DNA of 58,182 bases from the NCBI RefSeq assembly GCF_000455125.1, contig NZ_AUWR01000036.1:1-58182 (forward strand), written 5' to 3'. Under the pieces are notes generated by a model. That model had not been told where the DNA came from. It saw only the letters and a program-made list of their open reading frames with translations, and made no database searches. Numbering within the stretch: position 1 is the first letter of the stretch; each line of letters begins with the position of its first letter. Origin of the DNA: Mycobacterium sp. UM_WGJ (GTDB lineage Bacteria; Actinomycetota; Actinomycetes; Mycobacteriales; Mycobacteriaceae). A program made the translations under genes and the position numbers. Below are positions 1 through 19,366 of the stretch, one piece after another.

Positions 1-41
1 CGCAACTCGGCCGGGTACCTCTTCGACGTACTCCCTGACAT
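1..41 (-). CDS. Transposase OrfA of the IS6110-like element, N-terminal fragment
   Basis: The reading frame opens with ATG at 41-39 and reads MSGSTSKRYPAEL before leaving the window. This closely resembles the first residues of IS6110 OrfA (a Ser-rich start, then RRYPPELR), the helix-turn-helix-containing protein that is fused to OrfB by frameshifting in IS3-family elements. A purine-rich GGAAAGGA ribosome-binding site precedes it. Only 13 full codons are visible, so neither the frameshift nor integrity can be judged. Confidence 0.75.
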   Translation of the reverse strand, partial: MSGSTSKRYPAEL

Positions 42-92
42 GACTCCATCCTTTCCAAGAAACAGAGTCTCCGGACACGCCGGGGGGATTCA
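1..92 (-). mobile_element. Left end of an IS6110-like (IS3 family) insertion sequence, partial
   Basis: Read on the minus strand, the element starts at position 92 with TGAATCCCCCCGGCGTG and runs out of the window. The bases that follow (GTCCGGAGACTC, later TTGGAAAGGATGG and GTCATGTCAGG) match, from memory, the start of IS6110 with a few changes, including the distance to the first ATG. The first 17 bases occur again at 58166-58182 in the opposite orientation, which confirms that this is a repeated element end. The right end and the target-site duplication lie outside the window. Confidence 0.85.
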
Positions 93-122
93 GTCTTGTG
101 GTGCGCCCATGGTGTTCCCTCC
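93..122 (-). pseudogene. 5' end of an unknown gene cut by the IS element after codon 6
   Basis: On the minus strand a strong ribosome-binding site, GGAGGG (122-117), sits 6 nt before an ATG at 110-108. The frame reads MGAPQD and then meets the first base of the insertion sequence, whose own TGA at 92-90 stops it at once. This looks like the start of a gene lying 50-60 bp downstream of the PucR-type regulator on the same strand. Its remainder would lie beyond the insertion. Six codons are too few to identify it. Confidence 0.5.
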
Positions 123-173
123 GGAGATTCTGTGGACGACGCGACGAGGCTGCACTGATGTGCCGTCGGACCG

Positions 174-1367
174 CTAGCGGCCCTTGACCGTCTCGAATGC
201 GAGGCACAGTTCGGCGAGCTCACGTGGCGCGCTCAGGGAACGTCCGGTGTGTTCTTCGATGCGGCGCAACCTATTTCGTACCGTGTTGGGGTGACAGAAC
301 AGTACGGAAGCGGTCTCTGAAATCGACCCATCGTGGTCGAGCCACGCCTCGAAAGTCGCGCACAGACTGAGTTGCTCATCGCTGGGCAGCGAATTGAACG
401 GGCCGAGGATGATTTCGGAGATCTTGCGGGTCACCTCCGGTGCACTGACCGCGGCGATGCCGAGCACCGAATCGTCGAACGCACACACGTTGCCGTTCTG
501 TTGGGCTGGTGCCGCCTGGGCTACCCGGGCATAGCGCAAGGACATCGCGGTGTCGGCGAGATCGTTGAACACCGGGCTGACGCCGATGTTGGTGGTAGCC
601 ACGCGCCTGAGCAGGTCGATGACTCGCGACAGCGAATCGTTGGAAGGGAGGTGGGCGATACCGATCTGCACGTCGGGAAGCAGTCGCCATGCGGAGTGCA
701 CGTCCAGGCCGGCCAACATCGCCGTGGCGCTGCGGAGAGCTTGCTGACCGACTTTGGGCAATCCCGCGGCGATCACGATGTAGGGACCGTGGGCCGGCAG
801 TCCCAGCAGTTCCGCGACATCCCAGAGGCTGTACTCGCCCAGAGCTCGACCCTGCAGCAGCGCTTCGGTCAGGGCCGCCTGTTCGGCGGCGTCGTCGATG
901 GCGAGTTGTGTTGCGGTCTCGTGGTAGGCGGTGGTCATGGCCTCGGTGTAGCGGTCCTGTGCGTCCCAGAACCGTGCGGTAGCCGACAGCAGAGTCGCCG
1001 GACTGATATCCGGATTGTCGGCGCAGAACTTCATCATCTGGTTCCAGACGGTATGGCTGGCAACCCGAAAGGCGGCCACCACCGCGGATCGCGGTACGCC
1101 GCTTCGAGCTCTCAGCCGGCCGGTGTCCGCAGCCGGCGAGGTGTCGAAGGACGTGTGGTTCTGCAGCGCGCGGAACACAAAATGCATGTTGTCGGCCGCC
1201 GATTGCCCAAGTTCCTCGTCGGAAACTACGGCATTATTCCGATAGAAGGCGACTTCCGTGCGGACTTGGCCGACGATCTGGCGGCCCAGCTCTTCGACGC
1301 GTGATTCCAGCAGAGCCCCGAGCTTATCGAGCGCAATGTCGGGTTCGGGGTTGGTCATGCTGGGCAT
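174..1367 (-). CDS. PucR/CdaR-family transcriptional regulator
   Basis: This 397-residue protein ends in the PucR-type helix-turn-helix (roughly residues 333-395), seen in CHPNTVRNRLRRIEEHTG. That domain is typical of regulators such as PucR and CdaR, which control purine, sugar-acid or other catabolic genes. The N-terminal 150 residues are helical and resemble the sensor part of actinobacterial members; the middle is GGDEF-like in outline but lacks a recognisable catalytic motif. The start could be the ATG at 1367 or the third-codon neighbour MTNPEPD at 1358; neither has a clear ribosome-binding site. It diverges from the HdeD gene across about 190 bp. The IS-interrupted gene downstream may have been its target or operon partner. 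The effector is unknown. Confidence 0.85.
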   Translation of the reverse strand: MPSMTNPEPDIALDKLGALLESRVEELGRQIVGQVRTEVAFYRNNAVVSDEELGQSAADNMHFVFRALQNHTSFDTSPAADTGRLRARSGVPRSAVVAAFRVASHTVWNQMMKFCADNPDISPATLLSATARFWDAQDRYTEAMTTAYHETATQLAIDDAAEQAALTEALLQGRALGEYSLWDVAELLGLPAHGPYIVIAAGLPKVGQQALRSATAMLAGLDVHSAWRLLPDVQIGIAHLPSNDSLSRVIDLLRRVATTNIGVSPVFNDLADTAMSLRYARVAQAAPAQQNGNVCAFDDSVLGIAAVSAPEVTRKISEIILGPFNSLPSDEQLSLCATFEAWLDHDGSISETASVLFCHPNTVRNRLRRIEEHTGRSLSAPRELAELCLAFETVKGR

Positions 1368-1558
1368 TGTAGGGGGCCTATACGCGGTTGTACCCGTGGA
1401 CAGTCAAGACCTTGAATCCGTGTTCCCACGGCTATGGGCAGGTTCGAAATAGCTTCCTAGCATCGAGAAGTGTTATCGCAAGACCTGCGTTGGCACCCTC
1501 TTCGCTGTTGAGGATTTTTCTCCTTATGCAACTCTCCGGGAAGGACTTGGAATCAGTC

Positions 1559-2167
1559 ATGCCTGAATCACCGTCGGCGACACCCGCCACCATGATCGGA
1601 GTTCTTTGGCGAACGGCTATCGCATGGGGTGTGCTCGCGGTCATCTTCGGAGCGCTCATGCTGCTGTGGCCGACAATCACCGTGGTCGCGGCCTCAGTGC
1701 TGTTCGGTGCTTACCTGCTGGTGTCGGGGGTGGTGCAGGTGATCGCCGCATTTGGCGTGGAAATTTCGGGTGGTAGTCGCATCTTGCTCTTGATCAGCGG
1801 AGCGCTGTCGGTGATTCTGGCGATCATGGCCTTCCGGCATTTCGAGGAAGGCTACGGAGTCTGGCTGCTGGCCACCTGGATCGGCATCGGCTTTGTTTTC
1901 CAGGGGATCTCGGAGGTCGTCGTGGCGGCGAGCTATCGGGATCTGCCCGGGCGTGGCTGGCAGGTCTTCGGGGGAGTGGTCACCGTTGCGGCCGGCATCG
2001 TCACCCTGGCTTGGCCGATCACGTCGATCGTGACGCTGGCTCAGGTCACCGGAGCTTTCCTGATCGTCATCGGCATCATGCAGATCGTGAAGGCCATCCA
2101 GCTGCGCACTGGCGCGAATGAACTGACCCACGATCTGGGCTTGGATGGGCGCTACGCGCATCAGTGA
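1559..2167 (+). CDS. HdeD/DUF308-family membrane protein
   Basis: This 202-residue protein has six hydrophobic segments in three hairpins, the layout of HdeD (DUF308), a small membrane protein linked to acid resistance in E. coli. The N-terminal stretch of about 20 residues is polar. I chose the ATG at 1559 because the protein then begins MPESPSATPATM just before the first membrane helix, with a purine-rich GGGAAGGA 13 nt upstream. An in-frame ATG at 1526 would add 11 residues. The next gene starts 47 bp downstream on the same strand and is probably cotranscribed. The role in mycobacteria is not established. Confidence 0.8.
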   Translation: MPESPSATPATMIGVLWRTAIAWGVLAVIFGALMLLWPTITVVAASVLFGAYLLVSGVVQVIAAFGVEISGGSRILLLISGALSVILAIMAFRHFEEGYGVWLLATWIGIGFVFQGISEVVVAASYRDLPGRGWQVFGGVVTVAAGIVTLAWPITSIVTLAQVTGAFLIVIGIMQIVKAIQLRTGANELTHDLGLDGRYAHQ

Positions 2168-2214
2168 CGACGGGGCAGATACCTCAAGTGAATTCAATGA
2201 TGAAAGGGATATAA

Positions 2215-2658
2215 ATGGCACTGTCTGACCAACTCGCCAAGCTGAGCGCGCAGGCGAAGTCGCTGGAGGACGCCGCGGCCGCAGTATCGTCCAAGAACCG
2301 GGCATGGCTGGCCCAGCGAGAAGCGGAGGTACGGGCGACGCTGGACGAGACGCAATCTGCGACCAAGGCTGCGGTCCAGGAGACCAAGGACGACGTCGCC
2401 GCAGGCTGGCACGACCTTCAGCAGTCGGTGTCCGACGGCGTAGCGTCGATCAAGAACAAGGCGGACAAGCGGCGTACCGAGCACAAGGCCAAGCGGGCGG
2501 ACCGCGCCGCCGACAATGCCGAGATCGACGCCGAGGACGCGATCGCCTTCGCTGTCTACTCGCTCGAAGAGGCCGAATACTACGTGCTGGCGGCTGCGCA
2601 GGCGCGTATCGACGCAGACGAGGCAGAGCTGGAAGCGGCAGCCAAGTCCACCGAGTAG
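2215..2658 (+). CDS. Small Ala/Lys-rich coiled-coil protein of unknown function
   Basis: This 147-residue protein is rich in Ala, Glu, Asp and Lys and has no membrane segment or signal peptide. Almost all of it should be alpha-helical, with heptad-like stretches over residues 1-75, a basic patch (NKADKRRTEHKAKRADR) near residues 80-97, and an acidic Ala-rich C-terminus. AAAGGG lies 6-7 nt before the ATG. It follows the HdeD-like gene closely, so the two may act together, perhaps as a stress-response pair with the basic patch contacting membrane or nucleic acid. That is inference; I do not recognise a characterised family. Confidence 0.75.
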   Translation: MALSDQLAKLSAQAKSLEDAAAAVSSKNRAWLAQREAEVRATLDETQSATKAAVQETKDDVAAGWHDLQQSVSDGVASIKNKADKRRTEHKAKRADRAADNAEIDAEDAIAFAVYSLEEAEYYVLAAAQARIDADEAELEAAAKSTE

Positions 2659-2883
2659 CACGCTGGAGTGACTTCGCCGTCGGGTGCCGCCGTTCGTTGA
2701 TCCGGTGTGCACCCGGCGGGCGATGTCGTTGCCGCAGAGCAACCAACTCCACGGGGGCACCTCGCTCGAGCGCGTCTGCGCGAAAGATGTGCCGGGATAT
2801 GTTCGTACCGATGTATACCGGTCGATCCCGACCAGTGACGCAGCCGATCACGCGCATGTGGCGTGAAAGAACGGAGGAATCCC

Positions 2884-3741
2884 TTGGCTACGCAGATTCG
2901 CAGCGTGACCGTACTCGGTGCCGGCGTGCTCGGCGCGCAGATCGCATTCCAGTCCGCGTTCAAAGGTTTGACCGTGGTCGCCTACGACATCAACGACCAG
3001 GCATTGGCGGCCGCCCGCCAACGTTTCGACGGTTTGGTGCAGACCTATGTCACCGAGGTAGCCGACGCGAAAGATGGTGCAGCGCAGGAAGCCCTGACGC
3101 GATTGACTCTCTCCAGCGACCTGGGTGAGGCTGTCGCTGATGCCGATTTGGTGATCGAGGCCGTTCCTGAGGTGCTTTCGCTCAAGCAGGAGACCTACCA
3201 GAAGCTCGGCAGACTGGCGCCGCCGGAGACCATCTTCGCCACCAACTCCTCGACCCTGCTGCCCAGTGATCTCAAGGACTTCACCGGTCGACCGGACCGG
3301 TTTCTGGCGTTGCACTTCGCAAACCGGGTGTGGCAGTTCAACACCGCAGAGGTGATGGGCACCGATCAAACCGATCCGGCGGTCTATCAACAAGTCGTCG
3401 AGTTCGCCCGGGCTATCGGGATGGTTCCGATCGAACTGCACAAGGAGAAGGCGGGTTATGTGCTCAACTCGCTACTGGTGCCGTTCCTCAACGCCGCTCT
3501 CGAACTGGCGGCTGGTGGCTACGCCGACCCGGTCGATGTCGACACCACGTGGCGGATCGCCACCGGAGCGCCGGTCGGACCTTTCCAGATCTACGACATC
3601 ATCGGCATGAACACGCCCTACAACATTATGGCGCATGGCAGTCCGGCGGATCAGAAGCTCGCGGCCTGGCTCAAAGAGAACTACATCGACAAGGGCAAAC
3701 TCGGAATCGCCTCCGGCGAAGGCTTTTACAAATACTCCTGA
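2884..3741 (+). CDS. 3-hydroxyacyl-CoA dehydrogenase-family NAD-dependent dehydrogenase
   Basis: I place the start at TTG 2884: GGAGG at 2873-2877 lies 6 nt before it, and the NAD-binding motif GAGVLG then falls at residues 12-17 of 285. An upstream GTG at 2863 would put the ribosome-binding site inside the gene. The two-domain layout is that of 3-hydroxybutyryl-CoA dehydrogenases, with NSSTLLPSDL and a His in LHFANRVWQFNTAEVMG. That segment lacks the usual HFFNP proline. The gene lies only 19 bp upstream of oleate hydratase on the same strand. I infer that it oxidises the hydratase product (10-hydroxystearate to 10-oxostearate) rather than serving ordinary beta-oxidation. The alternative is a plain 3-hydroxyacyl-CoA dehydrogenase. 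Confidence 0.85.
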   Translation: MATQIRSVTVLGAGVLGAQIAFQSAFKGLTVVAYDINDQALAAARQRFDGLVQTYVTEVADAKDGAAQEALTRLTLSSDLGEAVADADLVIEAVPEVLSLKQETYQKLGRLAPPETIFATNSSTLLPSDLKDFTGRPDRFLALHFANRVWQFNTAEVMGTDQTDPAVYQQVVEFARAIGMVPIELHKEKAGYVLNSLLVPFLNAALELAAGGYADPVDVDTTWRIATGAPVGPFQIYDIIGMNTPYNIMAHGSPADQKLAAWLKENYIDKGKLGIASGEGFYKYS

Positions 3742-3760
3742 AACCCCCTCGAAAGGCAGC

Positions 3761-5524
3761 ATGTACTACAGCAGCGGCAATTACGAAGCATTCGCACGCC
3801 CGCGCAAGCCTGCCGGGGTCGACGACAAGACCGCCTGGCTCGTCGGCGCGGGCCTCGCGTCAATGTCGGCCGCTGCGTTCATGATCCGGGACGGACAGAT
3901 GAGCGGTGAGCAGATCACCATTATGGAACGGCTCAAACTGCCCGGCGGCGCCCTCGACGGAATCAAGGAACCCGAGAAGGGATTCGTCATTCGCGGCGGC
4001 CGCGAGATGGAAGACCACTTCGAATGCTTGTGGGACCTGTTTCGCACGGTACCGTCGATCGAGGTCGACGGCGCCAGCGTCCTCGACGAGTTCTACTGGC
4101 TCAACAAGGACGACCCGAACTTCAGCCTGCAGCGTGCCACTGTCAACCGCGGGCAAGATGCCCACACCGAGTGCAAGTTCGCGCTGAGTCACGCTGCACA
4201 GCAGGACATTCTCAAAGTCTTCCTCGCCACCCGCGCGGAGATGGAGAACAAGCGGATCGACGAGGTGTTTGGCAAGGATTTCCTGGCCAGCAACTTTTGG
4301 CTGTACTGGCGCACTATGTTCGCGTTCGAGGAATGGCACAGCGCGCTGGAGATGAAGCTGTACCTGCACCGCTTCATCCATCACATCCACGGGCTGCCCG
4401 ATCTGTCGACCCTGAAGTTCACCAAATACAACCAGTACGAGTCGTTGGTGCTGCCGCTGTACAGATGGCTGCTGGACCAGGGTGTGACGTTCGAGTTCGA
4501 CACCGAGGTCACTGACATCGACTTCGAGATCACCGCGGACCGTAAGCAGGCCAACCGAATCCACTGGATCCGCGGCGGTATCGGCGGCGGCGTCGATCTT
4601 GGACCAGATGACCTCGTGTTGACCACCATCGGCTCGTTGACGGAAAATTCCGACAACGGAGATCAACACACCCCGGCCAAACTCAACACCGGACCGGCGC
4701 CCGCCTGGGACCTGTGGCGGCGGATCGCCGCCACGGACCCGTCATTCGGGCGTCCCGACGTGTTCGGTGGCGACATCCCCAAGACCAAATGGGAATCGGC
4801 TACCGTCACCACCTTGGATCACCGTATCCCGGAATACATTCAGAAGATCTGCAAACGAGACCCGTTCAGCGGCAAGGTGGTGACCGGCGGCATCGTCACG
4901 GCGCGCGACTCGAAGTGGTTGCTGAGCTGGACAGTCAACCGCCAGCCACACTTCAAACAACAACCGAAAGACCAGATCGTGGTGTGGGTGTACTCGTTGT
5001 TCGTCGACGTGCCCGGGGACTACGTCAAGAAACCGATGCAGGACTGCACCGGCGAGGAGATCACCCAGGAATGGCTCTATCACCTCGGTGTTCCGGAAGC
5101 CGAGATTGCTGAGCTGGCGGCCAACGCGGCCAGGACGGTGCCGGTGATGATGCCCTACGTCACCGCGTTTTTCATGCCGCGCCAGGCCGGTGATCGGCCC
5201 GATGTGGTGCCCGACAAGGCGGTGAACTTCGCGTTCATCGGACAGTTCGCCGAGACCAGCCGGGACTGCATCTTCACCACCGAGTACTCGGTGCGTACCG
5301 GCATGGAGGCCGCATATCGGTTGCTGAACATCGAACGGGGCGTGCCCGAGCCGTTCGGATCCACCTACGACGTGCGCAAGTTGATCGAGGCGTCGCTGCA
5401 TCTGCGCGACGGCCAGGAGATGCAGTTGCCGGTGCCGGAGATCTTGCGCAAGCGAATGATGGCCAAGGTGACCGACAACGAAGTCGGCGCGCTACTGGTC
5501 CAGCACGGTCTGCTCGCGGAGTAG
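3761..5524 (+). CDS. ohyA: Oleate hydratase (MCRA family)
   Basis: This FAD-dependent enzyme adds water across the cis-9 double bond of oleate or palmitoleate to give 10-hydroxy fatty acids. The 587 residues match the family. The FAD-binding glycine motif VGAGLAS is at residues 28-34. The hallmark GGREMEDHFECLWDLF follows at 79-94, with the catalytic Glu at residue 82. The start is ATG 3761, with GAAAGG 4 nt before it; an upstream in-frame opening overlaps the preceding gene and adds no family sequence. It is translated with the dehydrogenase just upstream and converges on the transporter gene. In other bacteria oleate hydratases detoxify unsaturated fatty acids; here the context suggests catabolism. 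Confidence 0.93.
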   Translation: MYYSSGNYEAFARPRKPAGVDDKTAWLVGAGLASMSAAAFMIRDGQMSGEQITIMERLKLPGGALDGIKEPEKGFVIRGGREMEDHFECLWDLFRTVPSIEVDGASVLDEFYWLNKDDPNFSLQRATVNRGQDAHTECKFALSHAAQQDILKVFLATRAEMENKRIDEVFGKDFLASNFWLYWRTMFAFEEWHSALEMKLYLHRFIHHIHGLPDLSTLKFTKYNQYESLVLPLYRWLLDQGVTFEFDTEVTDIDFEITADRKQANRIHWIRGGIGGGVDLGPDDLVLTTIGSLTENSDNGDQHTPAKLNTGPAPAWDLWRRIAATDPSFGRPDVFGGDIPKTKWESATVTTLDHRIPEYIQKICKRDPFSGKVVTGGIVTARDSKWLLSWTVNRQPHFKQQPKDQIVVWVYSLFVDVPGDYVKKPMQDCTGEEITQEWLYHLGVPEAEIAELAANAARTVPVMMPYVTAFFMPRQAGDRPDVVPDKAVNFAFIGQFAETSRDCIFTTEYSVRTGMEAAYRLLNIERGVPEPFGSTYDVRKLIEASLHLRDGQEMQLPVPEILRKRMMAKVTDNEVGALLVQHGLLAE

Positions 5525-5549
5525 CGGCTCGGGTTCGCCGAACAAGCTC

Positions 5550-6974
5550 TCAGATGATCCACGGCGCAATGATCGTCATCGCCCCCAGGACCACCAACCC
5601 GATGACGAACGCCACGATCGTAAAGCCCATCACCTGACGGACATTGAGCTTCGCGATCGCCAGCAGTGGCAGCAGCCAGAAGGGCTGAATCATGTTCGCC
5701 ACGCCCTCGCCGACAGCAACGGCCATGGATACCAGGCCGAGATAGGCCGGTGACTGCTGGCCGATCGCCAGCGCAGAGTCGACGGCGATCGGGCCCTGCA
5801 CGGCCCAGTGCCCGCCGCCGGACGGCACGAACAGGCTGATGATCACCGAGCCGATAAAGGTCAGGAACGGCAACGTGTACTCCGTCGCGCCGTTGACCAG
5901 CGTCTGGGCCAGTAGCGTCTGCAGCGGCTTGGACCCCTCGGCGCCCTGGTACGCCAGCAGTCCGACCAGGCCCCCGTAGAGCGGATATTGCAGCAGCAGC
6001 GGGCCAGAGACCTTCGCGGCACCGGTGAATGCCCGGATGAAGCGAATCGGCGTGCGGTGCAGCAGGGCGGCGGTGATCGTGAACAGCATGATCATCGACG
6101 AGATGTTCAGCGCGAAACCACTGGTCACGAAATACGTGATCCCCGCCGCGAACAGCAGCACGTTGAGGATCCACTGATTCTCCAGCCATTCGGCAAATGT
6201 CTTGCCGGCCGGGATCTCAACGGCCGCTGTGTCGTCTTCGAACACCGCGGAATCGGGGGGCAGGCTTTCCGACGGCTCCATCCGCCACACCGCGAGCGCG
6301 AGCACCCCCAACACGATGAGCGCCGACAGCCAGCTGTACGGCTGGAAAATGGTCTGGCTCAACGGCACGGTGAATCCGGCGATCTTGTGGATCACGTTGA
6401 TGGGGCTGCCGGCATCGGTGTTCGCCAGCGCGATCGACGACGAGAGTCCCTGCGTCCAGACGATGAAGCCCATGAACGCCGCGGCGATCAGGTAGCCGAA
6501 ATGCGAGTCGGGGAAACGTCGCGCGACCTGCCGGGCCACCAGCGCACCGGCCACCAGGCCCAGGCCCCAGTTCAATAGGGACGCAGCGGCACTGACGGTA
6601 AAGCACAGCAGCGCCCCCTGCACCTGGTTGCGCGGCACAGCCGCGACGCGGACGATCGCCCGCTTCAGCACGGGGGCTTCGGCCAGCGTGTAGCCGGTCA
6701 CCAGGATCAGGGCCATCTGGAAGGCGAACGTGAAGATGTTCTGCGGCCCCCAGACCCCGGCGTACCAGGCCGTCAGCATGCCGCTGGCCGATGCGCCGCG
6801 CACCAGAGCGGCGACCATCCCGGCGACGATCAGCGTGAGGATCACGGCGAACAGGTACGGGTCGGGCATCAGGCGCTCGACGTAACGGACACTGAGCCCG
6901 GTGAGCGATTGCATGACGCCTCGGCGTTGCGTCGGCTGCTCAGTCATCGCGCCGTCTGCCCGTAGCTCGGTCAT
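5550..6974 (-). CDS. Short-chain fatty acid transporter, AtoE family
   Basis: This is a 474-residue polytopic membrane protein with about 12 hydrophobic segments. It has family sequences such as YVERLMPDPYLFAVILTL near the N-terminus and NWGLGLVAGALVARQVA in the middle. AtoE-type proteins are thought to move short-chain fatty acids such as acetoacetate or butyrate across the membrane. It lies 88 bp downstream of the TetR gene on the same strand and probably forms an operon with the BVMO and TetR. In that context it could take up or export the short or medium chain acids released by ester cleavage (inference). In-frame Met codons at residues 10 and 21 are alternative starts. Confidence 0.85.
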   Translation of the reverse strand: MTELRADGAMTEQPTQRRGVMQSLTGLSVRYVERLMPDPYLFAVILTLIVAGMVAALVRGASASGMLTAWYAGVWGPQNIFTFAFQMALILVTGYTLAEAPVLKRAIVRVAAVPRNQVQGALLCFTVSAAASLLNWGLGLVAGALVARQVARRFPDSHFGYLIAAAFMGFIVWTQGLSSSIALANTDAGSPINVIHKIAGFTVPLSQTIFQPYSWLSALIVLGVLALAVWRMEPSESLPPDSAVFEDDTAAVEIPAGKTFAEWLENQWILNVLLFAAGITYFVTSGFALNISSMIMLFTITAALLHRTPIRFIRAFTGAAKVSGPLLLQYPLYGGLVGLLAYQGAEGSKPLQTLLAQTLVNGATEYTLPFLTFIGSVIISLFVPSGGGHWAVQGPIAVDSALAIGQQSPAYLGLVSMAVAVGEGVANMIQPFWLLPLLAIAKLNVRQVMGFTIVAFVIGLVVLGAMTIIAPWII

Positions 6975-7062
6975 TGCGCAGCCTCTCGTCGGAAAACCGC
7001 TCGCATTGCGGTCGCTCGTGCTGTGCCACGATAAATCCCGCCGGCGCTCGGGCCGGGGGTTT

Positions 7063-7650
7063 TCAGCGCATGGTGGCGTGCAGCGCGTCGGTCATCGCTT
7101 CAATGGCAGCCTCGCGCTCCAGTGGCCAGCCGTCGACCAGCCACAGGTGCATGAAGGAATCGACCATGGTGTACATCATCGCGATGGCCAGCCGCAGCTG
7201 GGCCTCGGTGGCATCGGGCATGGCATCGGCCTCGATCCACTCGGTGACGTTGTCCTCCATGGTGGCTCGATGCGCCGCGGCGAACTCCGGGTCGGCCGCC
7301 CGCGCCTGATGCAGTGCCATATAGAGCTGCGGCGCGGAGGTGTAGAAGTCGACCACCTTCTCGAAGAACGCTCTGATCGAGGGCCGTCCCGATCTGCCGC
7401 CACGCGGGGCGTCCTGCTGGGACCAGACGGTCATGCGGGTATTGCGCAGTTCGCGCAGCACGGCAGCTTTGGAGTCGAAGTGCAGATAGAACGTCGCCCG
7501 CCCGATCCCGGCCCGGCGAACGATGTCGTCGATGGTCACTGCGACATAGCCGCGGTCGGCAAACGCCTCCAACGCGGCGGCCATGATCTGGTCGCGGGTC
7601 ATGGCGCGGTGCCGGTCACGCATCGTGAGTTTCGGTGCAGTGGAAGTCAT
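7063..7650 (-). CDS. TetR-family transcriptional regulator of the BVMO operon
   Basis: This 195-residue protein has a classical TetR DNA-binding domain at about residues 15-65 (ITMDD-like VTIDDIVRRAGIGRATFYLHF), followed by an all-helical ligand domain. The ATG at 7650 overlaps the BVMO stop codon (ATGA), so the two are translationally coupled; a longer upstream reading is antisense to real BVMO codons. A perfect 23-bp palindrome at 9503-9525, just upstream of the BVMO gene, is the obvious operator for this repressor. By analogy with EthR/EthA in M. tuberculosis, where a TetR repressor controls a BVMO, the ligand may be the ketone substrate or a related lipid. Confidence 0.9.
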   Translation of the reverse strand: MTSTAPKLTMRDRHRAMTRDQIMAAALEAFADRGYVAVTIDDIVRRAGIGRATFYLHFDSKAAVLRELRNTRMTVWSQQDAPRGGRSGRPSIRAFFEKVVDFYTSAPQLYMALHQARAADPEFAAAHRATMEDNVTEWIEADAMPDATEAQLRLAIAMMYTMVDSFMHLWLVDGWPLEREAAIEAMTDALHATMR

Positions 7651-9473
7651 TTCAGGATCACCCCCTCCAGCTGGCCGGTGGATCGCCACGCGTTCAGCAT
7701 CGCGAAGAACTCGACAGGCTTGCCTCCGAAATTGGTCGACAGCATGCCGTGCGGATTCTCCCGGTCGCCCTCGGAACTGAGGTAACTCGGCGTGCACTCG
7801 GCGTAGAAGGCTTTGGGCTTTCCTGATGCTTGGTCCATCGCGGCCAGCCACTGCTCCTCGGCGGCCTTGGTGGCTTCGATGGTGTTCGCACCCCGCTGCA
7901 CGAATGTGCTGACCAGGTAGGCGAAATGGCGGGCTCGCTCCTCGGCGGTGTGGGTGTAGTTGGGGGAGACCCCCGATTGGGTGTAGCCCAGGAAGAAGCA
8001 GTTGGGAAAGCCGTGGGTCTGTAGGCCGTGCAGTGTCCGCATGCCTTTGGCCCACTTGTCGCTCAGCCGCACATCGTCGCGGCCCACGATCTCGAAGCCG
8101 AGCCGACGGGTGAACTCGGTACCCACCTCGAAGCCGGTCGCGAACACCAGTGCGTCGAGTTCGTATTCGATGCCGTCGACCACGACGGCGGTCTCGGTGA
8201 ACCGATCGACGCCGCGCCCATCGGTGTCGACCAACGTGACGTTGTCCCGGTTGAACGTATCGAGGTACCGGTCGTGGTAGCCGGGCCGCTTGCAGTTCAG
8301 CCGGTACCAGGGCTTGAGCGCTTCGGCGGTCTTGCGGTCGCGGACGGTCTCGTCGATGCGGGCGCGCAGCCGTTGCATCGCCACGTAGTCGACGTGGAAC
8401 AGGAAGTCGGCGATCTCCTCGGGGGTCATCTGCCGGCCGAGGCGCTGAGTCTCGCGGATCACGGCGGGCTCACTGAGTTCCAGGGCCTTCTGCGTCCAGC
8501 CGTCGTCGGTGAGATCGAGGTCCATCTCCACCCCGCAGGTGACCCGGGTGAAGTTCTCCATGCGTTCGCGTTGCCAGCCCGGCTGCAGGCTCGCCGCCCA
8601 CGCCGGGTCGGTGGGCCGGTTGCCCCGCACCGAGACCGTGCTCGGGGTGCGTTGGAAGACGTAGAGCTGGCGCGCCCACTCTCCGAGGTGCGGGATGCAC
8701 TGCAGCCCAGTGGAACCGGTGCCGATGACGCCGACGCGCTTGTCGGACAGCTTGGTCAGCCCACCGGATTCGTCGCCGCCGGTGTAGCCGAAGTCCCAGC
8801 GGCTGGTGTGGAAGGTATGCCCGCGGAATTCGTTGATGCCGGCAATGCCCGGCAGTTTCGGCCGGGTGAGCGATCCGGGCGAGACCGCGACCAGCGTCGC
8901 GGTGAACGCGTCTCCGCGATCGGTGGTGATCTGCCAGCGCTTGGCGGCGTCGTCCCAGTGCAGGCCGGTGACCGTGGTGCCCAGCAACGCGTTGTCGTAG
9001 AGGCGGTAGTGCTTGGCGATGTTCTGCAGGTGTTCGCGGATCTCCGGGCCGTGCGCATAACGCTCGGTGGGCACGTAATTCAGCTCTTCGAGCAGTGGCA
9101 GATAGATGTAGGACTCGACATCGCACTGCACGCCGGGGTAGCGGTTCCAGTACCAGGTGCCGCCGAAGTCGCCGGCGGTGTCGATCATCCTGATGTCGTC
9201 GATACCGGACTCCTGGAGCCGCGCGGCGGCGATCAGGCTGCCCAGGCCGGCGCCGATGATCGCCACCTGGACGTGGTCGTGCACCGGGTCGCGCTCGACG
9301 CGTTCGGTCCACGGGTCGTCGGCGTAGTGCGAGAAATCGGCGGTGACCTCGATGAACTGGCCCACGGCGTCGGGACGCAGCCGTTTGTCGCGTTCGAGTG
9401 CGTACTTCGCCCGGACCCATTCGGGGTCGTACTCCGCTGGCTGCGGTCCCAGGGAGCTGGCCGTGGGGGGCAT
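7647..9473 (-). CDS. Type I Baeyer-Villiger monooxygenase (FAD/NADPH)
   Basis: This 608-residue enzyme should insert oxygen beside a ketone to form an ester or lactone. The FAD Rossmann motif GAGLGS is at residues 74-79. The BVMO fingerprint FRGHTFHTSRWD is at 216-227, and the NADPH Rossmann motif GTGSTG at 251-256. The N-terminal extension containing KYALERDKRLRPD places it among the longer BVMOs (cyclopentadecanone and steroid monooxygenase type) that take large or long-chain ketones, rather than EthA (about 490 residues). It is the first gene of the operon BVMO-TetR-AtoE. An esterase gene lies just upstream on the same strand, which is the usual partner for hydrolysing the ester product. 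The exact substrate is not visible in the sequence. Confidence 0.92.
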   Translation of the reverse strand: MPPTASSLGPQPAEYDPEWVRAKYALERDKRLRPDAVGQFIEVTADFSHYADDPWTERVERDPVHDHVQVAIIGAGLGSLIAAARLQESGIDDIRMIDTAGDFGGTWYWNRYPGVQCDVESYIYLPLLEELNYVPTERYAHGPEIREHLQNIAKHYRLYDNALLGTTVTGLHWDDAAKRWQITTDRGDAFTATLVAVSPGSLTRPKLPGIAGINEFRGHTFHTSRWDFGYTGGDESGGLTKLSDKRVGVIGTGSTGLQCIPHLGEWARQLYVFQRTPSTVSVRGNRPTDPAWAASLQPGWQRERMENFTRVTCGVEMDLDLTDDGWTQKALELSEPAVIRETQRLGRQMTPEEIADFLFHVDYVAMQRLRARIDETVRDRKTAEALKPWYRLNCKRPGYHDRYLDTFNRDNVTLVDTDGRGVDRFTETAVVVDGIEYELDALVFATGFEVGTEFTRRLGFEIVGRDDVRLSDKWAKGMRTLHGLQTHGFPNCFFLGYTQSGVSPNYTHTAEERARHFAYLVSTFVQRGANTIEATKAAEEQWLAAMDQASGKPKAFYAECTPSYLSSEGDRENPHGMLSTNFGGKPVEFFAMLNAWRSTGQLEGVILK

Positions 9474-9502
9474 CGCCTCGTGCTCCTTGCGTCATCGAGA
9501 TC

Positions 9503-9525
9503 TCACTGGACATAATGTCCAGTGA
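9503..9525. promoter_or_regulatory. Perfect 23-bp palindromic operator upstream of the BVMO gene
   Basis: Arms TCACTGGACAT (9503-9513) and ATGTCCAGTGA (9515-9525) are exact reverse complements around a single A. The site is 30 bp upstream of the BVMO start, where a repressor would block initiation. Its size and symmetry fit a TetR dimer site, and a TetR gene is the second gene of this operon, so autoregulation is likely. The assignment of this regulator to this site is inference. Confidence 0.8.
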
Positions 9526-9586
9526 ATAGACTAGGCGATAGCTGGCCAGACGCAACGTATATTCCTTGGGCTCAATTCGGCGGCCG

Positions 9587-10510
9587 TCAGCGCCGAGCTG
9601 GGAGAGCGGCGGCGATGTCCTCGAGGGCCCGGGCCGCGTCGTCGAACGGCCAGCGCATGAACTCGTGGATCATCCCGTCGTAGCGATTGATGGTGGTGGG
9701 GACACCCGCTTGTTGGAGTCGGGCGCCGTACTGTTCGCCCTCGTCGCGCAGGGCGTCGAATTCGGCGGTGACGATGAACGCCGGAGGAAGCTGCTCGAGG
9801 CTGGGGGCCAGCAGCGGCGAGACGTGAGCATCGAGCTTTTCGTGATCGCCGTTGAGGTAGTGGTTCATGAACCACTGCTGGGTCGCTCGACTGATGTTCC
9901 CGTACCGTCCCGCGAATTCTTGGATGGAAACATTCGATCGCCGAAAATCCAAGTCCGGGTAGATCAATACCTGGTGTGTGATGGCCGGGGCACCGGCGTC
10001 GCGAGCCATCAGCGCGACCACAGCTGCGAGATTTCCGCCGGCACTGTCACCGGCGACAGCGATGTTTGTGCCGTTGGCGCCGATTTCGCCCGCGTGCCGG
10101 CCCACCCACTGCGTGGCGGCGAAGCCGGCGTTGATCGCTGCCGGGTACTTGTGCTCGGGGGCCAGGGGATAGTCGACCGAGACGACGACGCGGCCGGTGC
10201 GGTTCGCCAGCGCCCGGGCCAGCCCGTCGTGGGTGTCGAGGTCGCCGAGCACAAAGCCGCCGCCGTGGAAGAAGACGATCACCGAACGCCGTTCCTCTGG
10301 TTGCGGGTGGTAGATCCGAACCGGCAAATCGCCGGCTTGCGTGGAGATGATGTGGTCGCAAACGCTTGCGACGGCTTCCCCGGTGCCCAGGCTTTCGGTC
10401 ATCAGACGCATGGCCTGCCGGACCTGCTCCGGGGCGAACGTGTGCAGGTCGGCAAAGTTACTGCCGGCCAGGCGTTCCAAATGGGCTTGGACCTGCGGAT
10501 GTAGTGGCAT
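9587..10510 (-). CDS. HSL-family alpha/beta hydrolase (esterase/lipase)
   Basis: This 307-residue hormone-sensitive-lipase-type esterase has the oxyanion motif HGGG at residues 82-85, the nucleophile Ser156 in GDSAGGN, an acid Asp252 (FDALRDEG) and His282 (DGMIHEF), so the catalytic triad is complete. It should hydrolyse carboxylic esters of short to medium chain. It lies 113 bp upstream of the BVMO gene on the same strand and may supply the second step, cleaving the Baeyer-Villiger ester. It diverges from the MerR-type gene, and the shared intergenic region carries a clear MerR-type operator, so this esterase is probably controlled by that regulator. Confidence 0.9.
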   Translation of the reverse strand: MPLHPQVQAHLERLAGSNFADLHTFAPEQVRQAMRLMTESLGTGEAVASVCDHIISTQAGDLPVRIYHPQPEERRSVIVFFHGGGFVLGDLDTHDGLARALANRTGRVVVSVDYPLAPEHKYPAAINAGFAATQWVGRHAGEIGANGTNIAVAGDSAGGNLAAVVALMARDAGAPAITHQVLIYPDLDFRRSNVSIQEFAGRYGNISRATQQWFMNHYLNGDHEKLDAHVSPLLAPSLEQLPPAFIVTAEFDALRDEGEQYGARLQQAGVPTTINRYDGMIHEFMRWPFDDAARALEDIAAALPARR

Positions 10511-10548
10511 GGCGCTGGGTGTCCTTTCTTAAGCGGCGCTTCGTCGCT

Positions 10549-10579
10549 AGTCTCTGACTTGAACCACGCTTCAAGTCAA
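10549..10579 (-). promoter_or_regulatory. MerR-type operator and leftward promoter of the esterase gene
   Basis: The inverted repeat TGACTTGAA (10555-10563) / TTCAAGTCA (10570-10578) is perfect, with a 6-nt spacer. On the minus strand it lies within a promoter with -35 TTGACT (10579-10574), a 19-bp spacer and a weak -10 GAGACT (10554-10549). The over-long 19-bp spacer holding the palindrome is the hallmark of MerR-activated promoters. The right arm also abuts the ribosome-binding site AAGGGG (10578-10583) of the MerR gene, so binding may repress the regulator itself. Confidence 0.72.
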
Positions 10580-10589
10580 GGGGATGGTG

Positions 10590-10967
10590 ATGCTGGACAT
10601 TGCTGAGGTGGCGAGTCGATCCGGTCTGGCGTCATCGGCGCTGCGGTTCTACGAGCGGCGCGGGCTGATCAGCTCCGGTGAACGCAACGGCCTGCGCCGC
10701 ACCTACGAGCCGGCGGTGCTTGACCGGCTCGCCTTGATCGGCTGTGCCAAAGCGGCCGGATTCACGCTTGCTCAGATCGAGCGCTTTCTGCGGGCCACGC
10801 CCAGTGACACCGAACTACGTGCACGAATGGCTGAGAAGGCTCGCCAAGTCGACGACGAAATCGCCCGCCTCACCCGCATGCGCGACAGCCTCACTCACGC
10901 GGTGACCTGCACCCATACCCCACTGGTCGAGTGCCCGGAGTTCAAGGCGCGCATCAGCGAGTCCTAG
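10590..10967 (+). CDS. MerR-family transcriptional regulator
   Basis: This 125-residue protein begins with the MerR winged helix (residues 1-70: LDIAEVASRSGLASSALRFY, then ERRGLI), followed by a long dimerisation helix (about 75-110) and a short tail with Cys and His (TCTHTPLVECPEF). The ATG at 10590 is preferred over the ATG at 10584 because the ribosome-binding site AAGGGG ends at 10583, leaving no spacing for the earlier codon. The two Cys of the tail could bind metal or sense redox state, but the SoxR cluster motif is absent. It diverges from the esterase gene and sits beside its own operator. Confidence 0.88.
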   Translation: MLDIAEVASRSGLASSALRFYERRGLISSGERNGLRRTYEPAVLDRLALIGCAKAAGFTLAQIERFLRATPSDTELRARMAEKARQVDDEIARLTRMRDSLTHAVTCTHTPLVECPEFKARISES

Positions 10968-11037
10968 CAGCTCGTCGGTTGTAGGGACCGTTTGATGTGC
11001 TACTACTGCCTAGCATCCTTCGATGAGAGGTTCCGCC

Positions 11038-11793
11038 ATGGCCGGTCTGTATCACGCCGCTGTCGTCTTCCTGATCGTCTTGACGGTCGTCACCTTCGCC
11101 AGCAGCTTCTGGTTCACCAATCCTTATGGCCGCTTCGCGAGTCCGGACGATCGCTTCACGCTGCCGGGAAAGATCAGCTGGCTGATGTTCGAGTGCCCGC
11201 AATGGTGGGCTTTTACCGTGACGTTCTGGCTGGTGGCGCACTCGCATGGGGCGCCGGCGATCGTGTTGTACGCACTGTGGCAGTGCCACTATCTCTACCG
11301 CGGGTTGATCTATCCGCTGAGCCGCAAGGGCGATGACAAACGCTTCCCGGTCTCCGGTATCGCCTTTGGCTTCGTCTTCAACGCCGTCAACGGATTCGCC
11401 AACGGTTACGCCGTGGCGCTGGCCCCGCACTTGCAGCAGGAGCGTTGGTTTGTCGACCCCCGCTTCATCGTCGGCCTGGCCGTGGCCGTGATCGGCTGGG
11501 GAATCAATTTCCAGGCCGATCGCATCCTGATCGGCCTGCGCGCCGACGGCAGCAGCGGGTACAGCATCCCGTACGGCGGGGTGTATCGCTGGGTGTCTTC
11601 GGGCAACTACTTCGGTGAGCTCGTCCTGTGGGCGGGCTGGGCGATCATGGCCTGGACTCTTCCGGGCCTGATCTTCCTGCTCTTCTCCATCGCCAACCTG
11701 GGGCCCAGGGCGATGGCCACCCACAAGTGGTACCAGCAGAAATTCCCCGACTACCCGCCCAACCGTAAGGCGATCATTCCCGGCGTACTGTAG
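11038..11793 (+). CDS. Steroid 5-alpha-reductase-like membrane protein
   Basis: This 251-residue integral membrane protein has about six to seven hydrophobic segments. Its C-terminal half fits the 3-oxo-5-alpha-steroid 4-dehydrogenase family, with YGGVYRWVSSGNYFGELVLW (about residues 180-199) and a terminal ATHKWYQQKFPDYP. Such enzymes reduce the delta-4 double bond of 3-keto steroids or related enones with NADPH. I chose ATG 11038, which has GAGAGG 7 nt upstream, rather than the upstream ATG at 11023, which would include that site. It converges on the next gene with only 9 bp between the stops. The natural substrate could be a steroid or another lipid; mycobacteria degrade sterols. Confidence 0.85.
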   Translation: MAGLYHAAVVFLIVLTVVTFASSFWFTNPYGRFASPDDRFTLPGKISWLMFECPQWWAFTVTFWLVAHSHGAPAIVLYALWQCHYLYRGLIYPLSRKGDDKRFPVSGIAFGFVFNAVNGFANGYAVALAPHLQQERWFVDPRFIVGLAVAVIGWGINFQADRILIGLRADGSSGYSIPYGGVYRWVSSGNYFGELVLWAGWAIMAWTLPGLIFLLFSIANLGPRAMATHKWYQQKFPDYPPNRKAIIPGVL

Positions 11794-11794
11794 G

Positions 11795-11821
11795 TGTCCG
11801 CCTCAGATATAGAGGCGGACA
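11795..11821. terminator. Bidirectional hairpin between convergent genes
   Basis: TGTCCGCCTC (11795-11804) and GAGGCGGACA (11812-11821) form a perfect 10-bp stem with a 7-nt AT-rich loop. It sits exactly where the rightward reductase gene (stop at 11791-11793) and the leftward gene (stop at 11803-11805) meet, and overlaps the last codons of the leftward gene. There is no T-run on either side, as is common in mycobacteria. It probably ends both transcripts. Confidence 0.65.
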
Positions 11822-12624
11822 GCGGAAATCTCGCCCCGGTCCGCGCCCGCTGTGGAGAACTCGAACAACCCCACCCCGCGGCGGCCGTCCAGGTGCACCG
11901 TCGCAGTGACGGTGTGCCCTGCGGCCAAGAGCTTTTCGACGGCCAGGTGCCGCGCCGTTGCGACGAACTCGGCGACCGAGGTCTCCGAAACACCGTCCGG
12001 ACTCAGCGTGGCATGGGGAGTCAGCTGCGCCGAAACCGCCGCCGCATCACCGTGCGCCAGCGCCGCGACAAGGTCTTCGACCCGACGCTTACCGCGCTTT
12101 CCCACCCCGGAAAGGCCGCGCAGGAATCCAGCGCAGCCAGAAAGGCCTTGGTGCCGAATCAGCTGCGGGCCCAGGATCACCGACGCCAGCAGGCCACGGC
12201 CACCGGAGGTAAGGAGCTGCCCGACCATCTTCTGCAGCTCCCAGTGCGCGAACAACCGCTGGATCTTCAGCGAGCTGTCCGGCCCCTGCGAGACCAGGTC
12301 ATAGCGCAGGTGCATCGGGATATGCATGGTGACACCCGTCGACATTGTGGTGTGCACCGTCAGGTCTCGGAGCACCGACATGCCGGCGACCACGTCGTTC
12401 TGCACCTCAAATGCGATCGTGTTAGGCGCGATGAAGGTGTCGAAGAAACGTCCGATGGCGGCCGTGCCGACATGGGGCCTCGAACCGACCGGATCATTCA
12501 CCTGGCCGTCGGCGGTGAAAATTCCGACCCACGCCGACTTATCGTGCACCGCAACAGCTTTCGGGGACCGCTCTACGGCGTCGAGCAGTGCACTGGCACT
12601 GTGCGAAGAACGCTGGTCCGACAT
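11803..12624 (-). CDS. Two-domain NTF2/SnoaL-like protein
   Basis: The 273 residues appear to hold two cone-shaped NTF2-like domains of about 120-130 residues, the first starting at ALLDAVERSPKAVAVHDKSA and the second at VEDLVAALAHGDAAAVSAQL. The family includes ketosteroid isomerases, polyketide cyclases and many non-catalytic ligand-binding proteins. The link between the domains is basic and Gly-rich (residues 145-185). It lies 43 bp downstream of the quinone-oxidoreductase gene on the same strand. A role in steroid or lipid handling is possible given the steroid-reductase-like neighbour, but the substrate is unknown and catalysis is not certain. The last codons form a terminator stem. Confidence 0.7.
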   Translation of the reverse strand: MSDQRSSHSASALLDAVERSPKAVAVHDKSAWVGIFTADGQVNDPVGSRPHVGTAAIGRFFDTFIAPNTIAFEVQNDVVAGMSVLRDLTVHTTMSTGVTMHIPMHLRYDLVSQGPDSSLKIQRLFAHWELQKMVGQLLTSGGRGLLASVILGPQLIRHQGLSGCAGFLRGLSGVGKRGKRRVEDLVAALAHGDAAAVSAQLTPHATLSPDGVSETSVAEFVATARHLAVEKLLAAGHTVTATVHLDGRRGVGLFEFSTAGADRGEISAVRLYI

Positions 12625-12667
12625 CGGAACTCCTCTCGTTTCGAAGACCGCTGAGAATTAACGCCGC

Positions 12668-13642
12668 TCAGTCACGCATCCGCAGCACGACCTTGCCGGC
12701 CGCGGTGCGATTCTCCAGTGCCGCCAACGCATCAGCGGCCCGGTCGAGGCCGAACACATCCGGTTGCGGCGCGGCCACCTTCCCGGAGGCCAGCAACGGC
12801 TCCAACGTCTCCCATTGGCGCTCCAGCTCACCCGGATGCGACATCACCCACGCGCCCCAACCGACGCCCACCACGTCGATGTTGTTGAGCAGCAGCCGGT
12901 TCACCTTGACAGTCGGAATGTCGCCACCGGTGAAGCCCACCACTAACAGCTTTCCGCCGGGGGCCAGCGAGCGCAGCGAGTCGGTGACACGGTCACCGCC
13001 CACCGGGTCGAGCACCAGGTCCACGCCGCGCCCGCCGGTCAGCTCGGCCACCGCCTCTCGGAACCCGTCGGCGAGCACGGTGTCGGTAGCGCCCGCAGCC
13101 CGGGCCACCTCGGCTTTAGCCTCCGTGGAGACCACCGCGATCACCCGCGAGGCCCCCAGCGGTGCGGCCAGCCGCAGCGTGGAGGTGCCGATCCCGCCGG
13201 CGGCGCCGTGCACCAGCACGGTGGCGCCTTCGGCCAGCCGGCCGCGGGTGGTCAGCGCGAAGAGCACCGTCAGGTCGTTGAACAGCAGCCCGGCACCGGC
13301 CTCGAACGACACCGTGTCCGGCAGCTTGAACACCTGCGCGGCGGGCACCGCGATCACCTGCGCCATGCCGCCGTTGAGCATGGTCAATACCGCCACGCGG
13401 TCCCCGGGGCGCACATGCGCGTCGGCCGGGGCGCTGCGCACCACGCCGGCAGCCTCGCCGCCTGGCACGAACGGCGGCTCCGGCTTGTGCTGATAGAGCC
13501 CGCGGGACTGCAACACATCGGGAAACGCCACTCCGGCGGCGTGGATGTCGATGACCACCAGGCCGGCACCGGCCGGTTCGTCTAGGTCGACTACCTGGGC
13601 AGCTGCCGGTCCGTCGAGTCGGGAAATCTGTACCGCGCGCAT
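12668..13642 (-). CDS. NADPH:quinone oxidoreductase, zinc-independent MDR family
   Basis: This 324-residue medium-chain dehydrogenase/reductase begins MRAVQISRLDGPA and has the GEAAGVV turn of the N-terminal catalytic fold. A Rossmann motif (HGAAGGIGTSTLRLAA) falls at about residues 143-158. The zinc-binding Cys and His residues of alcohol dehydrogenases are absent, which fits the quinone oxidoreductase group that reduces quinones or enones with NADPH. It is the first gene of a two-gene unit with the NTF2-like protein and diverges from an alpha/beta hydrolase gene across 98 bp. Confidence 0.85.
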   Translation of the reverse strand: MRAVQISRLDGPAAAQVVDLDEPAGAGLVVIDIHAAGVAFPDVLQSRGLYQHKPEPPFVPGGEAAGVVRSAPADAHVRPGDRVAVLTMLNGGMAQVIAVPAAQVFKLPDTVSFEAGAGLLFNDLTVLFALTTRGRLAEGATVLVHGAAGGIGTSTLRLAAPLGASRVIAVVSTEAKAEVARAAGATDTVLADGFREAVAELTGGRGVDLVLDPVGGDRVTDSLRSLAPGGKLLVVGFTGGDIPTVKVNRLLLNNIDVVGVGWGAWVMSHPGELERQWETLEPLLASGKVAAPQPDVFGLDRAADALAALENRTAAGKVVLRMRD

Positions 13643-13740
13643 GGGCGAACCCTTCGTCAGAAGTGCTTTTCCGAAAACCTAGTCCACGCAGGCGTATGCT
13701 CGCGATGCGGCAGCGTTGCCGCATTTCCGATGAGGTGGCG

Positions 13741-14727
13741 ATGAGTGCTCAACGGTCCGGTCGGCGGCGAAGTGCCGGCATGTTCCCGGTGGAGTTGCCG
13801 CCGGCCCGCACCATGGCGGTCCGGGCAGCCGACGGAACCAAGCTGCACACCCAGGTCTTCGGGCCGGCCGACGGGTATCCGATCGTGCTGGCGCACGGCA
13901 TCACCTGCGCCATCCGGGTGTGGGGACCTCAGATTGCCGACCTGAGCGCCGATCACCGGGTGATCGCCTACGACCACCGCGGCCACGGACGAAGCGGGGT
14001 GCCCAAGCGCGGCGGATACAGCCTGACGCACCTGGCATCCGATCTCGATGCGGTGCTGGAGGCCACCCTGGCGCCGGGAGAGCGTGCCGTCATCGCCGGA
14101 CACTCGATGGGCGGTATGGCGATCAGCGCCTGGTCAGACCGCTACCGGCACCGCGTGCAGCAGCGTGCCGATGCGGTAGCGCTGATCAATACCACCCTCG
14201 GCAACCTGCTGGCCGAAGTCGAACTGTTCCAGGTGCCACCGCCACTGCAGCGGGCCCGGGTGCAGGCAGCCCGTCGCGGGTTGCTGGCCTTTGGCAACGT
14301 GCCGATCGTCGGCCCGGCGAACCTGGCGGCTCGGCGATTCGTACACATGCTTGCCGTCGGCGGCGAGGCCGATCCGTGGGTCACCTCGTTGATCTGCGAC
14401 CTGTTCGCCAAGACGCCGGCCGCAAGCCGCGGCCACTGGGTGCGGGCGCTCGTCGACGCGCTCGGTCCGGCGTCCTTCATCAACCTCGACGGTCTGACCG
14501 TGCCCACCCTGGTCATCGGCAGCACCCGCGACCGATTGTTGCCGCTGGCGGCTTCGCAGCGAATCGCTGACGCCGCACCCAATCTCGCCCGGTTCGTCGA
14601 GGTCAGCGGGGGCCACTGCTCGATCCTGGAGCACCCTGTCGCGGTCAACCGTGAGCTTCGCGACCTGGTGGACCTGGCCACCGGATCCACCGGCGGCTTG
14701 GCCGTCGGGTCCGAAATCAGTTCATAG
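13741..14727 (+). CDS. Alpha/beta hydrolase
   Basis: This 328-residue protein of the classic alpha/beta hydrolase fold has an oxyanion-region motif (VLAHGITC), YDHRGHGRSG after strand 4, the nucleophile elbow GHSMGGMA, the acid in STRDRLLP and a His in GGHCSILEHP. The start at ATG 13741 has GAGGTGG just upstream; a longer opening from 13663 would reach into the divergent promoter. The F420-type oxidoreductase gene follows 15 bp downstream on the same strand, so the two are probably one operon. The substrate cannot be read from the sequence. Confidence 0.85.
   Translation: MSAQRSGRRRSAGMFPVELPPARTMAVRAADGTKLHTQVFGPADGYPIVLAHGITCAIRVWGPQIADLSADHRVIAYDHRGHGRSGVPKRGGYSLTHLASDLDAVLEATLAPGERAVIAGHSMGGMAISAWSDRYRHRVQQRADAVALINTTLGNLLAEVELFQVPPPLQRARVQAARRGLLAFGNVPIVGPANLAARRFVHMLAVGGEADPWVTSLICDLFAKTPAASRGHWVRALVDALGPASFINLDGLTVPTLVIGSTRDRLLPLAASQRIADAAPNLARFVEVSGGHCSILEHPVAVNRELRDLVDLATGSTGGLAVGSEISS

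Positions 14728-16882: not shown

Positions 16883-16883
<1 letters not shown>
15768..16883 (-). CDS. Conserved protein of unknown function, probably beta-rich (DUF7064/7065-like)
   Basis: This 371-residue protein has no membrane segment or signal peptide. It starts MLGPLDEFPIHQLPQPLAWP, and contains DRNFYDRCYLNAHDRTGD near residue 25 and a central SWGIRPVGERE motif. Alternating hydrophobic residues suggest a lipocalin-like or AttH-like beta structure; I believe mycobacterial relatives carry DUF7064/DUF7065 names, but this is from memory. Its ATG at 16883 overlaps the stop of the APH-type kinase by one base (TGATG), so the two are translationally coupled and probably act in one pathway. A longer upstream reading lies inside the kinase gene. 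Confidence 0.7.

Positions 16884-19366
<2,483 letters not shown>

Follow-up and report, generated by a model that had tools for sequence, protein, structure and literature searches.

We analyzed a stretch of DNA from Mycobacterium sp. UM_WGJ comprising the whole of contig NZ_AUWR01000036.1 (58,182 nt; contig C36 of genome G000, an assembly of 4.47 Mb in 116 contigs), hereafter the window, in which genes for an oleate hydratase (OhyA), a 3-hydroxyacyl-CoA dehydrogenase-family protein (HADH), a type I Baeyer–Villiger monooxygenase (BVMO), and an HSL-family esterase lie together within 7.6 kb. A preliminary description of this DNA had read the four as a native cluster for the cleavage of oleate. 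Gene families were assigned by Pfam and NCBIfam profile matches, and the six genes that had been placed here, encoding HADH, OhyA, an AtoE-type transporter, a TetR regulator, the BVMO, and the HSL esterase, were all found at those positions with strong family matches.

The first part of the locus, which we term block A, opens with a PucR-type regulator (HTH_30 and GGDEF_2 domains; PF13556, PF17853) on the reverse strand (nt 174–1367). Divergent from it, on the forward strand, are a DUF308 (HdeD-like) membrane protein (PF03729; nt ~1559–2167, start approximate), a 147-a.a. protein displaying no Pfam match (nt 2215–2658), HADH, a PRK08293-type dehydrogenase with a TTG start (NF006143; nt 2884–3741), and OhyA (MCRA; PF06100, NF010584; nt 3761–5524). 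The spacing of 19 bp between HADH and OhyA, on the same strand, is exactly that first described. The genes of the second part, block B, are transcribed in the reverse direction and comprise the AtoE-type short-chain fatty acid transporter (PF02667; nt 5550–6974), the TetR-family regulator (PF00440, PF17918; nt 7063–7650), the BVMO of ~600 a.a. (nt 7647–9473), and, adjoining these, the LipP1-like HSL esterase (PF07859, NF058653; nt 9587–10510). OhyA and AtoE are convergent with 25 bp between them, so the forward-strand OhyA half and the reverse-strand AtoE–HSL half cannot form a single operon.

Blocks A and B have separate syntenic partners among related genomes and meet at a sharp junction (nt 5528–5544). 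Using blastn, nt 192–5527 of the window matched the related genome G322 in four pieces at 75–89% DNA identity, with homology stopping at nt 5527. This genome carries the PucR, DUF308, small protein, HADH, and OhyA genes in identical order (PucR 73%, DUF308 69%, 147-a.a. protein 80%, and OhyA 94% identical), and an ortholog of the BVMO was not found in it (E ≤ 1e-230). The same five genes are present in rearranged order in G012 and G270 (PucR 63–64%, DUF308 63%, 147-a.a. protein 63–64%). On the other side of the junction, homology to the related genome G069 begins at nt 5545, runs to nt 10984 at 96.5% DNA identity and continues beyond, and no match to OhyA was found in this genome (E ≤ 1e-20). 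The GC content is 0.618 over nt 1–5545, 0.656 over nt 5546–10510, and 0.669 over nt 10511–58182. We compared the surroundings of the BVMO in 17 relatives from the first draw of genomes (of 30 known after the wider draw). TetR adjoins the BVMO in 16 of the 17 and AtoE is near it in 13, while HSL adjoins it in two (G069 and G101); the contig of G130 begins 741 bp before the BVMO, such that HSL could not be judged there. None of the 17 regions contained a match to OhyA or HADH. Given this separate synteny, and given that the genes are unlinked in relatives, as described below, the locus is unlikely to be a native cluster for cleaving oleate.

OhyA was searched at E ≤ 1e-20 in a first draw of 198 and a wider draw of 396 congeneric genomes, and orthologs of the BVMO were defined at E ≤ 1e-230 with at least 77% identity, the 396 genomes being treated as the same set in both searches. 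In the first draw, 10 genomes matched OhyA, one of them (G148) only through a weak match that spans 53 residues and contains a stop. Across the wider draw, OhyA was present in 19 genomes, the BVMO ortholog in 31, and both in five, and the two are adjacent only in the genome of the window. In the four other genomes with both, they lie ~1.1 Mb (G012), ~2.2 Mb (G016), ~1.2 Mb (G270), and ~1.9 Mb (G281) apart. Thus, among the 30 other genomes with a BVMO ortholog, 26 had no OhyA match, four had a distant one (1.1–2.2 Mb), and none had OhyA within 1 Mb; conversely, 14 of the 18 other OhyA genomes lacked a BVMO ortholog. The conserved co-occurrence in related genomes, which the preliminary description itself had set as a test of a native four-enzyme cluster, therefore failed to appear, with linkage confined to the genome of the window.

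Beyond the genus, we inspected named OhyA loci, the best 80 of at least 584 confirmed, in which neighbors were scored at E ≤ 1e-10 over more than 60 residues; 53 of these loci extend the full 10 kb on both sides of OhyA and 27 extend less on one or both sides. Neither HSL nor AtoE was matched near OhyA in any of the 80, PucR was matched in one (33% identity), and a BVMO-like gene in one (L071). We considered L071 as a second OhyA–BVMO locus and rejected it, since the match is an FMO-like domain at 30% identity and is separated from HADH–OhyA by LytR-type and pirin genes. A plasmid of Sphingobium sp. WTD-1 (L191), the one such case among eight OhyA plasmids examined, carries two pieces of a BVMO (nt 3585–4232 and 16814–17977, matching query residues 394–607 and 3–391) on opposite strands flanking OhyA, each no more than 10 kb from it, with IS256 transposases in between. 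The arrangement suggests that a BVMO gene was rearranged around an OhyA segment flanked by insertion sequences (IS).

HADH is the neighbor that OhyA does keep, and the pairing exceeds chance. A HADH match was noted near OhyA in 27 of the 80 named loci, directly upstream in 21, directly downstream in three (Stutzerimonas stutzeri, Stenotrophomonas pictorum, and a Pseudoxanthomonas metagenome-assembled genome), and 1.1–6.6 kb off in three; the other 53, R. erythropolis included, showed no HADH within the stretch examined. Within the genus, HADH is near OhyA in 18 of the 19 OhyA genomes, within 1.5 kb in 16 and ~2.4 kb away across PucR in G012 and G270; in the remaining genome, G063, which holds an OhyA fragment only, no HADH was seen. 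Among 198 plasmid records matching OhyA, eight were examined, and four of these carry HADH directly upstream of OhyA with a TetR-family gene before HADH in each and an acyl-CoA thioesterase also present in two. The named-locus, genus, and plasmid counts share species and are not additive. The OhyA/HADH pair recurs across phyla and on plasmids, and the comparison of related genomes indicates that it is a traveling module. After HADH, the next commonest neighbor of OhyA is a TetR family, found at 21 of 87 loci. We found no report of the HADH–OhyA gene pair, or of a native OhyA–BVMO cluster, among the top-ranked results of literature searches, and either may be in print.

Several further observations concern the OhyA loci themselves. 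Plasmids of Agrobacterium pusense (L195) and Novosphingobium resinovorum (L196) carry TetR, acyl-CoA thioesterase, HADH, and OhyA in a row (nt 4721–14298). A heavy-metal P-type ATPase comes after this row, and ahead of it, on the opposite strand, are genes of the catalase family and for Dyp-type peroxidase. Tandem OhyA paralogs (77% and 32% identity to OhyA of the window) occur at L057 (nt 8204–11670) and L060 (nt 1870–5277). OhyA is fragmented or partial in G175 (C1, nt 660586–662084), in G302 (C577 and C56, with the pieces at contig ends), and in G063 (C8, nt 1153–2076).

The predicted function of OhyA, the hydration of oleate to 10-hydroxystearate (10-HSA), is well supported by profile scores (719 bits to PF06100; 879.4 bits to the oleate hydratase model NF010584, cut-off 567) and by alignment to the oleate hydratase 7kav at 713 bits. 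HADH scored 413.6 bits against NF006143/PRK08293 (cut-off 312), and its closest solved relative is the diketoreductase 4dyd. Residues S123, H144, and E156 of HADH lie in columns identical to 4dyd, and we take them to be the catalytic Ser/His/Glu of the diketoreductase. The excerpted text of PMC7101164 describes an enzyme of Nocardia cholesterolicum NRRL 5767, Nc2-ADH, that was annotated as a 3-hydroxybutyryl-CoA dehydrogenase, was located via its similarity to a Micrococcus luteus enzyme (47% identity), and converts 10-HSA to 10-ketostearate (10-KSA) in recombinant form; knockout strains produce 10-HSA only. As a stand-in for the full Nc2-ADH sequence, we matched 11 published primers to a gene of Rhodococcus erythropolis (L153), to which all 11 fit in order with 0–1 mismatches. 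HADH of the window is 63–64% identical to this gene. In a phylogenetic tree (rows with fewer than 230 aligned residues, e.g., L008, excluded), the R. erythropolis gene groups with the HADHs that are linked to OhyA, in a clade separated at 100/100 support from three control homologs (two from the genome of the window and one from another genome), although the controls sit on very long branches. With homology to an assayed enzyme and conserved pairing combined, the prediction that HADH performs the NAD-dependent oxidation of 10-HSA to 10-KSA is strongly supported. The first two steps set out in the preliminary description, OhyA followed by HADH, are thus borne out as predictions from homology and gene pairing.

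The BVMO had been described as long-chain-type, an assignment that the matches do not bear out: at ~600 a.a., its nearest NCBIfam model is PtlE (776.7 bits, below the 1100 cut-off of that model) and its nearest solved structure is 5mq6 (451 bits). We take 5mq6 to be PockeMO, and PtlE and PockeMO presumably group with CPDMO. Motifs at residues 104 and 216 match what we take to be both type I BVMO fingerprints. The HSL esterase scored 365.8 bits against the LipP1 model NF058653 (cut-off 350) and contains HGGG (82), GDSAG (154), EFDALRD (250), and MIHEF (280), presumably the HGGG and GDSAG motifs and the catalytic Asp and His of HSL esterases. A MerR-family regulator (PF13411, PF09278; forward strand, nt 10584–10967) lies next to HSL, and MerR is also beside HSL in both relatives that carry it (L122 and L126). 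Across the genome of the window we found 15 matches to the BVMO (E ≤ 1e-20) and 19 to Abhydrolase_3, and on four contigs besides C36 (C2, C8, C32, and C65) a BVMO-like gene has an Abhydrolase_3 gene within ~5 kb. BVMO–esterase pairs are thus a common local pattern in this genome, and their occurrence beside any particular gene is not especially unusual. According to the available part of PMC4052671, a Dietzia BVMO of the CPDMO group oxidizes 2-alkanones up to 2-pentadecanone and does not oxidize cyclopentadecanone, so activity of the window BVMO on long-chain ketones is possible in principle.

The likely point of entry of block A could be traced through the sequence that follows AtoE in relatives. 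An MDMPI-type gene lies within 0.75 kb after AtoE in five of 10 BVMO relatives checked (L122–L131), G069 among them, and a tRNA-Met gene lies downstream of AtoE in seven of the 17; the G069 interval from AtoE to tRNA-Met additionally contains a DsbA-like gene and a P450-reductase fusion. The first 4.86 kb past AtoE in G069, up to tRNA-Met, had no match in the genome of the window by DNA search (40 of 236 candidates scored). From tRNA-Met onward, G069 matched the end of contig C71 of that genome at 92%. On C71, the tRNA-Met gene (L159, nt 14129–14203) lies ~265 bp from the contig end, and homology to G069 ceases 2 bases past the gene, likely marking an insertion or exchange point. The junction (nt 5528–5544), inspected by eye, showed no convincing duplicate of the 3′ end of tRNA-Met. 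The most economical interpretation has the oleate module inserting into, or being substituted for, the variable segment between tRNA-Met and AtoE, and we infer a gain here, rather than a loss elsewhere, because the other arrangement is commoner.

Further along the window, a tmRNA gene is present at nt 56117–56503 (tag AKALTPAKVALQSDFALAA), and nt 20386–36138 hold an extended series of reverse-strand open reading frames, many abutting or overlapping.

Our favored explanation, to which we assign a probability of roughly 85%, is that the locus juxtaposes two distinct functional units: an oleate module (block A, nt 1–5527) and an unrelated TetR–BVMO–AtoE block (nt 5545 onward), here with HSL, that is also seen in relatives lacking OhyA. 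In block A, OhyA would hydrate oleate to 10-HSA, which HADH would oxidize to 10-KSA with NAD+; the divergent PucR, the DUF308 membrane protein, and the small protein accompany HADH–OhyA in some relatives. This two-step module is well supported as a prediction and is what remains of the proposed pathway. It likely serves the disposal of unsaturated fatty acids or the feeding of the keto acid to β-oxidation: detoxification is stated as a role in the available section of PMC8994360, and Micrococcus luteus β-oxidizes 10-KSA to 4-ketolauric acid according to the accessible text of PMC7411827. Block B probably handles other ketones.

The native pathway of the preliminary description would place OhyA, HADH, BVMO, and HSL in series, cutting oleate to C8/C10 or C9 products with AtoE moving the acids. 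Four enzyme classes within 7.6 kb, the existence of an engineered cascade of the same order (reviewed in PMC8403116, as its excerpt indicates), the Dietzia enzyme's use of 2-pentadecanone and not cyclopentadecanone (PMC4052671, in part), and a mild excess of genomes with both OhyA and the BVMO ortholog all speak for it. Set against these are the unlinked genes in all four other genomes with both, the 26 of 30 other ortholog genomes without OhyA, the 80 named loci with no HSL or AtoE match and a single weak BVMO-like one (30%), the presence of HSL beside the BVMO in only two of 17 relatives, and the two halves on opposite strands either side of a sharp synteny junction. Gene linkage gives no support to the BVMO and esterase as steps three and four, and with no recurrent linkage and separate synteny blocks we rejected the four-step cluster; of the joint function once proposed, the OhyA and HADH steps are strongly supported and the native cleavage cluster is not. 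We consider improbable a reading in which the BVMO and an esterase cut 10-KSA into C8–C10 acids and alcohols here and maybe also in those four genomes that carry both genes unlinked. Block B might instead be a ketone-degradation unit of its own, independent of oleate, converting a ketone to an ester and then to an acid and an alcohol, with AtoE moving the short-chain acid. The recurrence of TetR and AtoE around the BVMO (16 and 13 of 17) where OhyA and HADH never occur, and the BVMO-like/Abhydrolase_3 pairs on four other contigs, favor this reading, the scarcity of HSL beside the BVMO in relatives (two of 17) counts against it, and we would call it an even bet that complements the explanation by two units more than it opposes it. 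As for block A, HADH could be a plain β-oxidation 3-hydroxyacyl-CoA dehydrogenase beside OhyA by coincidence, as its family name and NCBIfam label suggest. We rejected this as very improbable given the Nc2-ADH primer match, a pairing with OhyA that recurs in both gene orders and in several genera, a clade shared with the Nc2-ADH match apart from the (long-branched) controls at 100/100, and a diketoreductase as the nearest solved relative.

Some findings do weigh against the explanation by two unrelated units. OhyA and the BVMO ortholog share five of the 396 genomes where 1.5 would be expected (hypergeometric p 0.011), or four against 1.4 without the genome of the window (p 0.039), by a calculation that ignores phylogeny. 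Distant BVMO homologs (~47–56% identity) are present in 161 of 198 genomes (E ≤ 1e-120), including OhyA genomes without the ortholog (G141, G157, G165, and G177; 48–52% identity), so such genomes may still own a usable BVMO; the best matches listed lie on a different contig from OhyA in G141, G165, and G177 and ~1.9 Mb away in G157. The product of block A could also reach the BVMO regardless of gene order. Finally, that C71 and C36 are neighbors is something we infer from their contig ends.

Oleate cleavage by a native pathway would have been a noteworthy discovery, and the failure of linkage averts a tempting false positive. Were the pathway real, it would mirror the engineered cascade in nature, arisen by an oleate module landing beside a ketone-degrading block. 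A dedicated dehydrogenase frequently accompanies OhyA, across phyla and on plasmids, which suggests that the module in these bacteria yields 10-KSA and not 10-HSA; the HADH–OhyA loci also offer a supply of matched hydratase and dehydrogenase pairs.

Compared to known systems, the BVMO resembles the CPDMO/PtlE/PockeMO group in its size of ~600 a.a., its best model (PtlE), and its best structure (5mq6), yet scores under the 1100-bit PtlE cut-off. The engineered OhyA–dehydrogenase–BVMO–esterase cascade, as excerpted from PMC8403116, draws on these enzyme classes too and arranges them in the same sequence of steps, as the preliminary description had noted; however, it is a laboratory assembly, whereas the adjacency in the window was seen in a single genome, with the BVMO part of a different synteny block. 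A further parallel is the Nc2-ADH route of Nocardia cholesterolicum, in which, as the available part of PMC7101164 describes, OhyA and an enzyme annotated as a 3-hydroxybutyryl-CoA dehydrogenase take oleate to 10-HSA and 10-KSA. Compared to that route, OhyA and HADH are adjacent in the window and stand alongside PucR, DUF308, and the small protein, unlike in R. erythropolis (L016), where no match to HADH was seen up to 10 kb from OhyA.

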